From Kineosporia corallincola (lineage in GTDB: Bacteria; Actinomycetota; Actinomycetes; Actinomycetales; Kineosporiaceae), in the NCBI RefSeq assembly GCF_018499875.1, contig NZ_JAHBAY010000003.1, positions 496,001 to 560,000 on the forward strand: 64,000 bases of DNA, read 5' to 3'. The stretch's first letter is position 1, and every line of letters begins with the position of its first letter. Both the position numbers and the translations under genes were made by a program. Positions 60,403-64,000 of this stretch are shown here, in pieces. The notes under the pieces are model-generated. The model had not been told where the DNA came from, did not search any database, and saw only the letters and a program-made list of their open reading frames with translations.

Positions 60403-60517
60403 GGCCGCCTGCCGGTCATGACCCACCGTGAGCCGCCGTGAACCGCCGTGAGCGGGCGGCGAGCTGTCCGGGAGCTGTCGGAACCTGTCACGGGGCGTTC
60501 GCAGGTTCTGCGGGTGG

Positions 60518-60565
60518 TTCTGCCAGGAACGACCGGCAGAGTTCTTCTCACGACAGCGAAACAGC
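60518..60565 (+). promoter_or_regulatory. 48-bp upstream element, copy 1 (before peptide gene 1)
   Basis: This 48-bp block occurs without any difference before peptide genes 1, 2 and 4, ending 29 bases before each start codon here. It contains a perfect inverted repeat TCTGCC-N10-GGCAGA (60519-60540) and GGAAC at its centre, which could be part of an extracytoplasmic-sigma-type promoter. Promoter or regulator binding is inferred from the conservation. Confidence 0.65.
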
Positions 60566-60594
60566 GGTCGCACCAACGAAAGAGGAGAGACACC

Positions 60595-60708
60595 ATGGCG
60601 AAGATCCTGAAGGCCCGGCACCGTCGTCCCGCTCAGAAGGTCGACCCGCAGCCGAAGCGCACGGAGCAGAACCGGGACGAGGCGCCCGCGCAGGGCGACC
60701 GCGACTGA
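60595..60708 (+). CDS. MAKILK-family small peptide 1 (type A)
   Basis: 37 residues: N-terminal MAKILKARHRRPAQK, then a hydrophilic middle with alternating basic and acidic residues, ending GDRD. Ribosome site AGAGGAG lies upstream. There is no Cys, Ser, Tyr, Trp or Phe, and no hydrophobic segment, so it is a disordered polyampholyte with a positive N-terminal half and an acidic C-terminal half. Type A shares RHRRPAQKV with peptide 3. It is followed by a UUCG-capped terminator, so it forms its own transcription unit. Function unknown; an exported peptide is inferred from the ABC exporter gene downstream. Confidence 0.8.
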   Translation: MAKILKARHRRPAQKVDPQPKRTEQNRDEAPAQGDRD

Positions 60709-60733
60709 CCCTTCTCCCCACGCCACGCAGGCC

Positions 60734-60780
60734 GGGGCCGGTGAACACCTTCGGGTGCTCACCGGCCCCGCCCGCGTTTT
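60734..60780 (+). terminator. UUCG-capped intrinsic terminator after peptide gene 1
   Basis: An 11-bp stem GGGGCCGGTGA/TCACCGGCCCC continues past one A-C mismatch into CACC/GGTG closed by a TTCG tetraloop, and TTTT follows at 60777-60780. Confidence 0.85.
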
Positions 60781-60838
60781 GGCGACGATCGCGAATGTGC
60801 CTGCGCTGTCAGATGTTTCTTCCAGGTTTCGGTCGCCG

Positions 60839-60886
60839 TTCTGCCAGGAACGACCGGCAGAGTTCTTCTCACGACAGCGAAACAGC
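60839..60886 (+). promoter_or_regulatory. 48-bp upstream element, copy 2 (before peptide gene 2)
   Basis: Identical to the element at 60518-60565 over all 48 bases, including the TCTGCC-N10-GGCAGA inverted repeat. It lies downstream of the gene 1 terminator, which implies a new promoter for genes 2 and 3. Confidence 0.65.
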
Positions 60887-60914
60887 AGTCGCAGCGACGA
60901 AGAGGAGAAACACC

Positions 60915-61031
60915 ATGGCCAAGATCCTGAAGAACCGCGACCGCCGCCCCGTCGCCAAGCCGGAGACCCCGGCCAAGCGCAAGGACAACCAGAACAACCA
61001 GCAGCCGGCCCCCGCCGCCGACCGCGACTGA
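60915..61031 (+). CDS. MAKILK-family small peptide 2 (type B)
   Basis: 38 residues: MAKILKNRDRRPVAKPETPA, then a Lys/Asn/Gln-rich stretch and a C-terminal PAPAADRD. AGAGGAG precedes the ATG. Type B is shared with peptide 4 (RDRRPVxKPETPAKRKDNQ). Forty-five bases separate it from peptide gene 3 without an intervening terminator, so the two should be co-transcribed. No secretion signal, cysteine or double-glycine site is present. Confidence 0.8.
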   Translation: MAKILKNRDRRPVAKPETPAKRKDNQNNQQPAPAADRD

Positions 61032-61076
61032 CCCCCACCCCTCCCCCACCACCGAAATCCCAAGGAGCACAGAACC

Positions 61077-61190
61077 ATGGCGAAGATCCTCAAGGCCCGG
61101 CACCGTCGTCCCGCCCAGAAGGTGGAGACCCAGCCGAAGCGCAACGAGCAGAACCCGGACCAGGCGCCCGCACGGGACGACCGCGACTGA
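61077..61190 (+). CDS. MAKILK-family small peptide 3 (type A)
   Basis: 37 residues, close to peptide 1 (MAKILKARHRRPAQKVETQP against MAKILKARHRRPAQKVDPQP), ending DDRD. AAGGAG precedes the start. The spacer to gene 2 (CCCCACCCCTCCCCC) carries no copy of the 48-bp element, so gene 3 depends on the gene 2 promoter. It is followed by the second UUCG-capped terminator. Confidence 0.8.
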   Translation: MAKILKARHRRPAQKVETQPKRNEQNPDQAPARDDRD

Positions 61191-61228
61191 GCGGGCGTAC
61201 GGCACGTCGTCCTGATGCCACGCAGGCC

Positions 61229-61275
61229 GGGGCCGGTGAACACCTTCGGGTGCTCACCGGCCCCGCCCGCGTTTT
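61229..61275 (+). terminator. UUCG-capped intrinsic terminator after peptide gene 3
   Basis: Same stem, TTCG loop and TTTT tail as the terminator after gene 1, 495 bp further on. Confidence 0.85.
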
Positions 61276-61333
61276 GGCGACGATCGCGAATGTGCCTGCG
61301 CTGTCAGATGTTTCTTCCAGGTTTCAGTCGCCG

Positions 61334-61381
61334 TTCTGCCAGGAACGACCGGCAGAGTTCTTCTCACGACAGCGAAACAGC
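61334..61381 (+). promoter_or_regulatory. 48-bp upstream element, copy 3 (before peptide gene 4 and exporter)
   Basis: Third identical copy. As no terminator lies between gene 4 and the ABC exporter gene, this element should drive the exporter as well, tying peptide and exporter expression together. Confidence 0.65.
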
Positions 61382-61409
61382 AGTCGCAGCGACGAAGAGG
61401 AGAAACACC

Positions 61410-61523
61410 ATGGCCAAGATCCTGAAGAACCGCGACCGCCGCCCCGTCACCAAGCCGGAGACCCCGGCCAAGCGCAAGGACAACCAGGACAACCAGCAGC
61501 CGGCCCCGGCCGGCCGCGACTGA
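61410..61523 (+). CDS. MAKILK-family small peptide 4 (type B)
   Basis: 37 residues: MAKILKNRDRRPVTKPETPA, then a Lys/Asp/Asn/Gln-rich stretch and the C-terminus PAPAGRD. It differs from peptide 2 by a Val-Ala to Val-Thr change, one Asn to Asp change and a C-terminal AADRD to AGRD change. AGAGGAG is upstream. The stop codon is 13 bases before the exporter ATG, so the peptide and exporter are co-transcribed. Confidence 0.8.
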   Translation: MAKILKNRDRRPVTKPETPAKRKDNQDNQQPAPAGRD

Positions 61524-61536
61524 GCGATCGCCTGAC

Positions 61537-63387
61537 ATGAGCACCCTGCTCGACGCTCAGGCCGAGGCCGGTGGGCACCTCGCGGTGTCCGCCGGCCCGG
61601 CCGGCCCGGCGGTGACGGACGAACCACCCGAACCACCGCGTCTCAGCTGGCCGCAGGTCCTGCGCCGCTTCTGGCCACTCACCGCGGGCAGACGCCTGGC
61701 GATGGCCGGCGCGCTGCTCTGCTTCACCCTCGCGGTGGTGGCCGACGCGATAGGCATCGAGCTGCTCTCCACGTTGATCGACGGCGCGGTCGAAAACGCC
61801 GACCTGGACCAGTTCTGGCACCCGGCGGCGATCTGGGCCGTGGTCACCCTGGCCGCGGCCGCGCTGACCTACGCCGGTTCCGTGCTCACCGCCTCCGCCT
61901 CCGAGCGGTTCTCCCGGCGGCTGCGCGCCCACACCCACGACCACCTGCTCACCGTGGCCCCGGAGGAACTCGACCGGCGCGCGCTGGGCGACGTGCTGTC
62001 CCGGGTGGTCGACGACACCGAGGACGTCGAGCACCTGACCGTCAGCGGAGCCGTCAGCACCGCCGGATCGGCCCTGGCCGTGGTGATCTTCGGCATCGCC
62101 GCCTGGCGGCAGAGCTGGATGCTGGCGCTCGTGGTGCTGGCCGCCGCCCCCTGCGTGTGGCTGCTGAACCGCTGGCTGACCGGACGCACGCACGCCGTGT
62201 CGATGCGCACCCGGGTGGCTCACGGCGCCCTGACCTCGACGCTGGAGCAGAGTTTCACCAACGCCGCGCTGGTGCAGGCCTACAACGGGCGCCCGGCCGA
62301 GCGCCGCCGCCTGGCGGCCGTGTCCGGCCGGCTGATGCGGGCCCGGCTGCGGCAGACCCGGCTGGCCGCCGTGCAGGGGCCGCTCACCGAGCTGGTCGAG
62401 ACGGCGGGACTGCTGGCCGTGATCGGCATCGGCGTCATCAACATCGCCACCGGCGACCTGACCGTGGGCGGCCTGCTGGCCTTCACCGCCTACCTGACGT
62501 TCCTCTACCCGCCGATCACCGCGCTCGGTCAGCTCGGGCTGGTCGCCTCCAGCTCCGGCACCAGCGCGGCCCGGCTGGTGGAACTGCTCGACCTGGAGCC
62601 CGCGGTGCGGGAGGCCCGGTCTCTCGTCGTCCATGACCGGGAGATCACGGCGGGACCGGCCGGCATCGCGATCGAGGGCGTCACCGTGCGCTCGCCCGGC
62701 CGTCCCGACCGGCTGCACGACGTCAGCCTGCGGATCCCGGCCGGCGCGCTGGCCATGGTCACCGGCCCGAGCGGCGCCGGAAAGTCCACCCTGGTGGAGC
62801 TTCTCGTGCGGTTCCGCGACCCGGACGCCGGGCGGATCCGGCTCGGCGGCCGGGACCTGCGGGACCGCCCGCTGGGCGAACTGCGCAACGAGGTGACGCT
62901 GCTGCCGCAGGAACCGTTCATGTTCGACGAGACGGTGCGCGACAACATCACCTACGGCGTGCCGGAAGACCCGGGCACCGGCCCGATCAGCCTGGCGACC
63001 CGCGACAGCGGCGCCGCGGAGTTCCTCGACCGGCTGCCCGACGGCCTGGCCACCCAGGTCGGCCAGCGCGGCCGGGCCCTGTCCGGCGGGCAGCGGCAGC
63101 GGATCGCCCTGGCCCGGGCCCTGCTGCGGGAGGGATCGGTGCTGGTGCTCGACGAGCCGACCACCGGCCTGGACCCGCAGGCGGCACAGAACCTGATCGG
63201 CACGCTGCGCCTGCTCACGGCGCGGGGCCGCACGGTGGTGCTGGTGACGCACGACCTGGGCCTCACCCGCTACGCCGATCAGGTGATCGAGATGCGGGCC
63301 GGCCGGGTGCACCGGCTGACCGTCTCACCGGACGCCCCGGCCCACCCCCTGGACCGTCCGGGAACCCAGCAGCTGAAGGCCGGGTGA
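61537..63387 (+). CDS. ABC exporter, fused membrane and ATPase domains
   Basis: 616 residues. A short Pro/Glu-rich cytosolic lead (about 1-40, ending PRLSWPQVLRRFWPL) is followed by six membrane helices (about 50-320), with the type IV exporter layout. The ATPase has Walker A TGPSGAGKS near residue 408, Q-loop LLPQEP, signature LSGGQRQRIALARALL and Walker B VLVLDEPTTGLD. There is no N-terminal C39 peptidase domain, so the exporter does not itself cleave a double-glycine leader. It lies 13 bases after peptide gene 4. A second, incomplete ABC gene starts at 63921 with a similar lead (LPRLTW), so the functional exporter may be a heterodimer. Substrate assignment to the MAKILK peptides is inference. 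Confidence 0.88.
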   Translation: MSTLLDAQAEAGGHLAVSAGPAGPAVTDEPPEPPRLSWPQVLRRFWPLTAGRRLAMAGALLCFTLAVVADAIGIELLSTLIDGAVENADLDQFWHPAAIWAVVTLAAAALTYAGSVLTASASERFSRRLRAHTHDHLLTVAPEELDRRALGDVLSRVVDDTEDVEHLTVSGAVSTAGSALAVVIFGIAAWRQSWMLALVVLAAAPCVWLLNRWLTGRTHAVSMRTRVAHGALTSTLEQSFTNAALVQAYNGRPAERRRLAAVSGRLMRARLRQTRLAAVQGPLTELVETAGLLAVIGIGVINIATGDLTVGGLLAFTAYLTFLYPPITALGQLGLVASSSGTSAARLVELLDLEPAVREARSLVVHDREITAGPAGIAIEGVTVRSPGRPDRLHDVSLRIPAGALAMVTGPSGAGKSTLVELLVRFRDPDAGRIRLGGRDLRDRPLGELRNEVTLLPQEPFMFDETVRDNITYGVPEDPGTGPISLATRDSGAAEFLDRLPDGLATQVGQRGRALSGGQRQRIALARALLREGSVLVLDEPTTGLDPQAAQNLIGTLRLLTARGRTVVLVTHDLGLTRYADQVIEMRAGRVHRLTVSPDAPAHPLDRPGTQQLKAG

Positions 63388-63603
63388 GACCGGGCGAAAA
63401 GAATGAACCACGACCTCGTTTCATGTTCCTTTATCGAATGCGATTGCCGGATGACAACTTCCATTGAAGAATCAATCATGATCAGGCACCCCCGAACCGG
63501 TGCCACCCCGCACCCGTGCACCCCTTCACTTGTCTGGAGACTTTCCCCGGTGCCTCGTGAATTTGCTTGTTCTCCTAAGTTTTTCACAGTCGCTGATCAT
63601 GGT
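63388..63603. other. Low-GC spacer between exporter and peptide gene 5
   Basis: GC falls to 40 percent over 63421-63480 (24 of 60 bases), far below neighbouring DNA. A frame of 68 codons on the plus strand (63403-63609) has no ribosome site and atypical codons. I see no gene. It may be a promoter or regulatory region, or a remnant of inserted DNA. Confidence 0.5.
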
Positions 63604-63651
63604 TTCTGACAGAAAAGAACGCCAGAGTCCTTTCTCGTCGCCGCGAAACAC
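63604..63651 (+). promoter_or_regulatory. Diverged copy of the upstream element before peptide gene 5
   Basis: TTCTG, GAACG, CAGAGT, CTCG and GCGAAACA are shared in order with the 48-bp element of genes 1, 2 and 4, but the TCTGCC/GGCAGA palindrome is lost. Alignment is by eye. Confidence 0.45.
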
Positions 63652-63680
63652 CTCGCGGCACCGACCAGAAGGAGCCACTC

Positions 63681-63791
63681 ATGGCGAAGATCCTCAAGCC
63701 CCGCAAGCGTCGTCCCGTCGAGAAGCCGCTGCCGGAGCCCCGCAAGAAGAAGCAGCAGCCGCAGGAGCCGGCCCCGCAGCCGCGCGACTGA
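63681..63791 (+). CDS. MAKILK-family small peptide 5
   Basis: 36 residues: MAKILKPRKRRPVEKPLPEP, then a Lys/Gln/Pro-rich stretch ending APQPRD. AAGGAG precedes the ATG. It is the most diverged member and forms a third type, but keeps the invariant N-terminal pattern and C-terminal Arg-Asp. It has no Cys, Ser, Thr or aromatic residue. A terminator separates it from the second ABC gene. Confidence 0.78.
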   Translation: MAKILKPRKRRPVEKPLPEPRKKKQQPQEPAPQPRD

Positions 63792-63829
63792 CGTAGCACC
63801 CGACGCCGACTCACCCTCGGCCGACGGCC

Positions 63830-63863
63830 GGGCCGGTAGGCACCTCACGGTGCCTGCCGGCCC
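63830..63863 (+). terminator. Terminator hairpin after peptide gene 5
   Basis: 15-base arms GGGCCGGTAGGCACC (63830-63844) and GGTGCCTGCCGGCCC (63849-63863) pair with one wobble position around a 4-base TCAC loop. It is 38 bases after the gene 5 stop, before the next ABC gene. Confidence 0.75.
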
Positions 63864-63920
63864 AGCGCTTTGCCCGATCCCCTTTTCCGGAGGGACTTTT
63901 CCCATCACGAGGAGCCGGAC

Positions 63921-64000
63921 GTGACGCCACCCGATCCCGAGACCGATGCGGGCGAGGACGAAGACGATCCGGGCAGTGACCTGCCCCGGCTGACCTGGCC
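63921..64000 (+). CDS. Start of a second ABC transporter gene (truncated by window end)
   Basis: Only 26 codons are visible from GTG 63921, with GGAG upstream: an acidic Asp/Glu-rich lead ending LPRLTW. That ending aligns with PRLSW just before the first membrane helix of the exporter at 61537, which suggests a paralogous ABC exporter subunit. The identification depends on this short match and on the context. Confidence 0.5.
   Translation, partial: MTPPDPETDAGEDEDDPGSDLPRLTW

Follow-up and report, generated by a model that had tools for sequence, protein, structure and literature searches.

A family of short basic peptide genes linked to a putatively genus-restricted ABC exporter in Kineosporia

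We identified five very small, related genes in a 64,000-nucleotide stretch of the 8.2-Mb Kineosporia corallincola genome (G000; contig C3, positions 496001-560000; hereafter the window). The genes are open reading frames (ORFs) of 36–38 codons, all on the forward strand, with products of 37, 38, 37, 37 and 36 amino acids. Genes 1–4 precede the gene for an ATP-binding cassette (ABC) exporter, here called ABC1, and gene 5 lies between ABC1 and a second exporter gene, ABC2, the arrangement that an earlier note on this DNA had described. The note had also claimed a shared MAKILK-x-R-x-RRP-x-x-K start and Arg-Asp (RD) end, a ribosome site before each gene, and a lack of Cys, Ser and aromatic residues, with Thr missing from one product. 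All of this is borne out: both termini are found in five of five peptides, a Shine-Dalgarno-like site stands at every gene, and Cys, Ser and aromatic residues are absent throughout, peptide 5 being the one that lacks Thr as well. An 18-base DNA pattern for MAKILK (two or fewer mismatches) occurs five times in the window, each time exactly, whereas 100 shuffles give a mean of 0. In the whole genome, a profile search with the five peptides recovers these five alone at E<1e-10, followed by two matches with E values of 0.4 and 2.

The family is present in six genomes of the soil-dwelling genus Kineosporia, among them K. rhizophila (G001), K. mesophila (G002) and K. babensis (G004). Genomes G000 to G005 carry 5, 1, 2, 2, 1 and 2 copies, 13 in total, and four of the six are multicopy. 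In the relatives genes were called with a simple ORF script and not taken from annotation; all 13 start with ATG and have a Shine-Dalgarno-like site. Every peptide gene lies on the same strand as, and 13–828 nt upstream of, an ABC gene of a single subfamily, and each of the seven ABC genes of this kind is preceded by a peptide gene. The seven ABC proteins share 71–95% mutual identity, and the best relatives seen have 33–42% identity outside Kineosporia compared with 74–80% inside. In five of the genomes the peptide-ABC unit is flanked by genes for a DUF456 protein and a nitroreductase. In K. babensis this site is empty, the nitroreductase and DUF456 genes being 169 nt apart with nothing between them (L076:7077-8358), and the peptide and ABC genes are found together at a different chromosomal place among unrelated neighbors. 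The two have therefore moved, or been kept, as a unit.

The two halves of the unit also resemble each other in their relationships. Peptide 5 is 72–75% identical to the peptides just upstream of the G002 and G005 ABC genes compared with 53–64% to peptides 1–4, and ABC2 clusters with the ABC proteins of the same two genomes (support 91/89, slightly below the tree tool's 95/80 mark). Over the seven units, peptide and ABC identities are correlated (r=0.79, exact permutation p=0.004). The gene link between peptide and exporter is well supported. The earlier note had proposed a dedicated exporter and named a lack of homologs beside ABC exporters in other genomes as one outcome that would refute it. 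Such homologs are found in all six Kineosporia genomes, so that the linkage part of the proposal stands (13 of 13 copies and the joint relocation), with export and the role of the peptides still put forward as suggestions.

Both peptide and ABC look restricted to the genus within the genomes searched. Searched against 58 genomes (the window's own, five of the same genus and 52 others), the five-row window profile matches at E<=1.3e-8 solely in the six Kineosporia genomes, with partial matches at E 0.08–0.49 in 12 further genomes, including three of the same family (G006, G007 and G012). A profile of all 13 peptides gives the same six genomes (best E per genome <=2.4e-14) and three weak matches among 396 genomes of the order, and the window's own genome and four weak matches among 394 genomes of the class. 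Since the Kineosporia peptides themselves went into the 13-row profile, its strong matches there are by construction, and the independent support for genus restriction comes from the five-row profile. The seven weak matches (E 0.003–0.009) are partial, and four of them lie within open frames of more than 200 amino acids; neither such a peptide nor an ABC signature is found in the 3 kb taken for two of them (L055 and L084). Clear matches to both peptide and ABC occur in all six Kineosporia genomes and in none of the seven other genomes of the family, where no peptide was found at E<=0.01 (13-row profile) and no ABC at E<=1e-62.

ABC matches of 33–36% identity occur in two of eight further genomes of the order. 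Upstream of the best ABC homologs in a plasmid collection, from Nonomuraea (42%) and Streptomyces nigrescens (38%), about 1.2 kb on the same strand contains no comparable small ORF preceded by a ribosome site; these stretches are unannotated. The ABC candidates scored per genome numbered 104 in the family-level search and 90 in the search at E<=1e-62; the class-wide search (E<=1e-130) scored the best three candidates per genome, so diverged orthologs could escape it. A contig pattern scan, which may omit records of or near the window's own genome, returned three Kineosporia contigs (mesophila, babensis and rhizophila) and one Desulfobacterales ORF of 30 amino acids. The likeness of the latter is confined to its first 12 residues and was taken as chance. 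A scan of viral contigs found no relative.

The peptides consist of a conserved head and a rapidly changing tail. Across 78 non-independent pairs, residues 1–15 have a mean proportion of nonsynonymous differences (pN) of 0.13 and of synonymous differences (pS) of 0.28, and residues 16 onward have a pN of 0.38 and a pS of 0.35. The head is conserved at the amino-acid level, and the remainder diverges about neutrally or faster. Between the sister genomes G002 and G005 the ABC protein and the products of five flanking genes are 94–97% identical, whereas identity in the two peptide pairs is 56% and 84%. The peptide pairs have 31.3 nonsynonymous and 6.7 synonymous changes. The corresponding counts are 33.5 and 86.5 in the ABC gene and 85.5 and 214.5 in the five flanking genes (Fisher p=8e-9 for peptides against ABC, p=4e-10 for peptides against flanking genes). 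The tails account for 27.8 nonsynonymous and 3.2 synonymous changes over about 101 and 31 sites, counts that suggest positive selection while falling short of proof. The character of the tail is kept: from residue 16 on, the residues C, F, W, Y, S, M, I, L, V and H make up 14 of 294 (4.8%) compared with 28–37% of the possible single-base replacements. The GC content at third codon positions is 0.94 for the 13 genes together. Given the pN and pS of the head and the residues avoided by the tail, constraint seems to act on the protein product, on the sequence of the head and on the character of the tail. Such a contrast between head and tail, seen in sister species, is a sign of conflict or recognition, something seldom observed in a gene of this size.

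We also identified two putative RNA features associated with the peptide genes (Table 1). A 23-nt leader element lies approximately 35–70 nt upstream of the start codon. With up to three mismatches allowed, its pattern has nine matches in 13 genomes of the family, every one upstream of a peptide gene, and a reversed control pattern has none in the same genomes. The K. babensis leader has a 3-nt insertion, and that of peptide gene 5 has diverged. A small local hairpin is predicted in all 11 leaders, with a folding energy below the average for mononucleotide shuffles, and two leaders have G-C in place of A-T. The G000 leaders 1, 2 and 4 prefer a different stem, and RNAalifold finds no consensus hairpin in 10 of the 11 leaders (one identical copy omitted). 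The evidence for the 5' hairpin is modest.

The second feature is a terminator-like hairpin with a stem of 14–18 bp (-28 to -45 kcal/mol) that follows 11 of the 13 peptide genes, at a variable distance of 23–65 nt from the stop codon, with TTT or longer right behind the stem in 8 of the 11. Compensatory two-sided changes are seen in 8 of 17 pairs in an alignment of nine of these hairpins, two near-identical copies being omitted. The other two peptide genes, in G000 and G002, are followed directly by another peptide gene, without an intervening hairpin. A 300-nt direct repeat in the window (60715-61014 and 61210-61509) contains a hairpin, a leader element and most of a peptide gene, and the 98% identity of the two blocks shows that part of the peptide run is a recent tandem duplication. 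The layout of leader and terminator would suit abundant production of peptide alongside a small amount of exporter. The predicted start of ABC1 (61537-61612) spans a hairpin homologous to the other terminators, and the same is seen in K. rhizophila; the true start may lie downstream of the hairpin, or read-through may be coupled to translation.

Table 1. Features of the peptide and exporter locus, numbered from the first nucleotide of the window
Feature	Position	Strand	Basis or remark
Leader element of peptide gene 1, 23 nt	60536..60558	+	Pattern matches, alignment
Peptide gene 1, 37 amino acids	60595..60708	+	ORF, shared motif, profile
Terminator-like hairpin after peptide 1, then TTTT	60730..60773	+	Folding
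Leader element of peptide gene 2	60857..60879	+	Pattern matches
Peptide gene 2, 38 amino acids	60915..61031	+	ORF, shared motif, profile
Peptide gene 3, 37 amino acids	61077..61190	+	Own ribosome site, no leader element, tandem with gene 2
Terminator-like hairpin after peptide 3, then TTTT	61225..61268	+	Folding
Leader element of peptide gene 4	61352..61374	+	Pattern matches
Peptide gene 4, 37 amino acids	61410..61523	+	ORF, shared motif, profile
ABC1, 616 amino acids from first ATG, permease fused to ATPase	61537..63387	+	Pfam ABC_membrane, ABC_tran
Hairpin homologous to the terminator-like ones, within predicted ABC1 start, no T run	61566..61603	+	Folding
Diverged leader element of peptide gene 5, with 7-bp hairpin (63640-63659)	63623..63659	+	Alignment, folding
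Peptide gene 5, 36 amino acids	63681..63791	+	ORF, shared motif, profile
Terminator-like hairpin after peptide 5	63825..63862	+	Folding
ABC2 (start), 688 amino acids from GTG 63921	63921..64000	+	Continues beyond window

The earlier note had called for extension of the contig past position 64000, and on the extended sequence ABC2 is complete (L009:3921-5987), ending 1,987 bases beyond the window. No C39 peptidase domain is matched in ABC1 or ABC2, their Pfam matches being ABC_membrane, ABC_tran and overlapping P-loop models. In NCBIfam the ABC matches general exporter models (MsbA, CydD and others), below the curated cut-offs, and the solved structures that it resembles are P-gp, MsbA and BmrA. 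It also matches 28 PADLOC models, the best being mad3 (E 1.5e-31) with the best stretch at residues 509–591, the ATPase end. These matches were put down to the shared ATPase domain.

The five window peptides have no match in Pfam, NCBIfam, PADLOC or PHROGs, and the 13-row profile matches no PDB chain up to an E value of 10. No description of the family is found among the listed matches in open papers, and the string MAKILK is in none of them. The family is therefore apparently undescribed, in agreement with the earlier note. The 13 Kineosporia peptides have a net charge of +4 to +9, with +4 to +7 across the first 18 residues, and contain 4–9 Pro each. F, W, Y and C are absent, Ser occurs once in total and Thr 0–2 times per peptide, a residue content that does not fit the modifiable core of lanthipeptides, thiopeptides and lasso peptides among the ribosomally synthesized and post-translationally modified peptides. 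As to modification enzymes, no third gene is shared by the K. babensis surroundings and the usual site, and the neighbors scanned at the window locus are ordinary. Bacteriocins processed by C39 peptidases at a double glycine are excluded by the lack of both a leader-ending GG site and a C39 domain. A GG pair is found in one peptide, that of K. babensis, two residues from the C-terminus, where a cut would leave RD alone. The note's exclusion of lanthipeptides, thiopeptides and C39-processed bacteriocins is thus upheld.

Several known kinds of peptide share part of this description. Proline-rich antimicrobial peptides of the apidaecin and oncocin type have a similar Pro/Arg/Lys-rich composition; the Kineosporia peptides differ in being bacterial, in having no aromatic residues and in finding no profile match among PDB chains. 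The phenol-soluble modulins of staphylococci are leaderless peptides with a dedicated ABC exporter, Pmt. However, they form amphipathic helices, and Pmt consists of separate permeases and ATPases whereas the Kineosporia exporter is fused. Leaderless bacteriocins also have ABC transporter genes within their clusters. According to a review of the lacticin Q, aureocin A53 and enterocin L50 type (PMC6131525), leaderless bacteriocins are short, cationic and unmodified, with no evident leader and sometimes several paralogs, all of which recalls the Kineosporia peptides. A small cationic peptide beside an ABC transporter is likewise found in 13 of 13 cases here. However, leaderless bacteriocins are hydrophobic or amphipathic and membrane-active in that account, and by composition the 13 Kineosporia peptides are neither hydrophobic nor amphipathic, with no aromatic residues and few hydrophobic ones from residue 16. 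The Kineosporia ABC differs too, in being a fused, single-gene B-family exporter. A leaderless peptide with an ABC exporter is already a known kind of system; what is new here is an apparently genus-restricted exporter together with peptides that are so hydrophilic and change so fast.

Our favored, though tentative, explanation is that the genes encode unmodified cationic peptides exported by a cognate ABC transporter. Short and probably disordered peptides would be made abundantly from self-terminating transcripts, and the ABC exporter, next in line, would be made at a lower level through read-through or from its own promoter. This B-family exporter (of the MsbA/BmrA/P-gp kind, and assumed to be a homodimer) would carry the peptides out. 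The 15-residue head, MAKILKxRxRRPxxK, would be recognized by the exporter or by the target of the peptide, and the Pro/Gln/Glu/Lys/Arg-rich tail would be the diversifying part that gives specificity, as in antagonistic or strain-specific signaling peptides. Because no C39 peptidase was matched, either nothing would be cut off or a housekeeping protease would trim the peptide. The peptide genes have multiplied both with the leader (genes 1, 2 and 4) and without it (gene 3, and gene 2 in G002), which would be expected of genes whose peptide matters in its own right. There is no firm basis to choose between an antimicrobial and a signal, and we lean slightly to antagonism because the tail changes fast and no receptor or regulator gene is linked. 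If the peptides are exported, a hydrophilic cargo with no evident cleavage site, hardly any modifiable residues and a transporter lacking a matched peptidase would extend the known range of ABC exporters, and the head would define a short export address. A bolder version, which we regard as fairly unlikely, is that they constitute a new class of unmodified hydrophilic secreted actinomycete peptide, with a MAKILKxRxRRP address read by a peptidase-free B-family exporter and a rapidly diversifying Pro/Gln-rich tail, acting as a strain-specific antimicrobial (possibly intracellularly, like the proline-rich peptides) or as a signal.

Several observations weigh against export of this kind. The ABC exporter belongs to a general type, matches no peptidase and has a sequence that does not reveal its substrate. 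The peptides are, judged by composition, much more hydrophilic than known leaderless bacteriocins. In an ORF comparison of the K. babensis surroundings with the usual site, no third gene moves with the pair, which leaves no obvious candidate for a dedicated immunity, receptor or protease gene. Leaving out G005 lowers the correlation between peptide and ABC identities to r=0.44 (p=0.06), and shared species history contributes to it. The divergence of the tail could reflect relaxed constraint. The composition bias of the tail is only partly tied to the reading frame, because one of the two other frames contains just as few of the listed residues (2.8%). Two of the seven units, those of ABC1 and K. 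rhizophila, have the hairpin within the predicted ABC reading frame. Finally, a layout of small ORF, hairpin and ABC gene fits attenuation too.

Attenuation is the main alternative, and one absent from the earlier note: the small ORF would be a leader peptide that senses stalled or slow (for example, drug-bound) ribosomes, governs whether transcription passes the hairpin, and in this way turns on a multidrug ABC exporter. The invariant K-x-R-x-R resembles the +x+ motif carried by macrolide arrest peptides, and a terminator-like hairpin does stand behind 11 of the 13 small ORFs, ahead of the ABC gene. We take this rival seriously, since small ORF, terminator and ABC transporter form a known regulatory arrangement: in Bacillus subtilis, according to PMC4191407, the small ORF bmrB with its terminator governs the ABC exporter genes bmrCD through ribosome-mediated attenuation. 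The same paper places the terminator within the bmrB ORF and predicts anti-terminator structures, whereas the Kineosporia stem begins past the stop codon. Because of the resemblance to bmrB, the key requirement, anti-terminator pairing, was tested computationally by pairing codon 13 onward plus the spacer with the 5' arm of the hairpin, in the 11 units with a hairpin and with 300 synonymous recodings for each. In this GC-rich DNA, pairing of the coding region with the arm is possible at -14 to -30 kcal/mol. However, the pairing is weaker than the hairpin itself in 11 of 11 units and no stronger than in the synonymous recodings (mean z +0.32, range -1.5 in K. rhizophila to +2.2). These results reduce the likelihood of attenuation, although a plain effect of translation speed could act without the tested pairing. 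The variable spacing between stop codon and stem, the four peptide copies before one ABC gene, the repetition of peptide genes without regulatory parts in G000 and G002, and the retention of a tail composition that an attenuator would not need also argue against it. Compared with BmrB, the Kineosporia peptide is multicopy in four of six genomes, has an N-terminus constrained at the amino-acid level and shows no selected anti-terminator. We consider attenuation unlikely; if it does operate, leader-peptide control of an ABC exporter in a high-GC actinobacterium, with amplified leader copies, would be unusual as well.

The peptide might instead stay in the cytosol, as a basic peptide binding ribosomes, nucleic acid or the transporter, or as a spore or stress component, and share a pathway with the ABC, for example as its regulator. 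The basic N-terminus, the very hydrophilic composition and the lack of an evident secretion signal are consistent with this, and short basic proteins exist in actinobacterial ribosomes. However, the strict pairing with an exporter gene and the lack of any match to the families and structures searched (Pfam, NCBIfam and PHROGs for the five peptides, PDB for the 13-row profile) argue otherwise, and few housekeeping ribosomal or DNA-binding peptides would have a tail that diverges so fast; a cytosolic role therefore seems rather improbable to us. There is only a slim chance that the two genes are co-regulated neighbors with no functional link, the ABC exporting lipids or drugs and the peptide being a hitchhiking private stress peptide. 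The general, below-cut-off exporter matches and the P-gp, MsbA and BmrA likenesses are what such an ABC would give, but the joint relocation in K. babensis, the joint absence from seven other genomes of the family and the grouping of both peptide 5 and ABC2 with the G002/G005 pair weigh against it.

Some further observations concern the surroundings of the unit. An Rfam search of L009:1-7500 gave five sub-threshold microRNA-family matches alone, which were taken as chance. Upstream of the leader a second, partly conserved block is seen in the window (60485-60530) and at other copies, consisting of CTGTCA ... CAGGTTC ... GTTCTGCCAGGAAC. The block from CTGTCA to GTTCTGCCAGGAAC is not known to fit any sigma-factor consensus and may be a promoter or operator. 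The neighbors of the window locus that were scanned are ordinary genes (neighbors elsewhere were scanned in part), with a nitroreductase and a GNAT/acyl-CoA-ligase fusion before peptide 1 and DUF456 and gyrase-B-like genes after ABC2. The ABC proteins vary at their C-terminal ends. ABC1 and the K. babensis and K. rhizophila proteins are without a long C-terminal tail, and the other four of the seven (ABC2, L042, L044 and L046) have one with a basic motif, TRSQ[ML]IR-ERA or SRAERIRSERAR.

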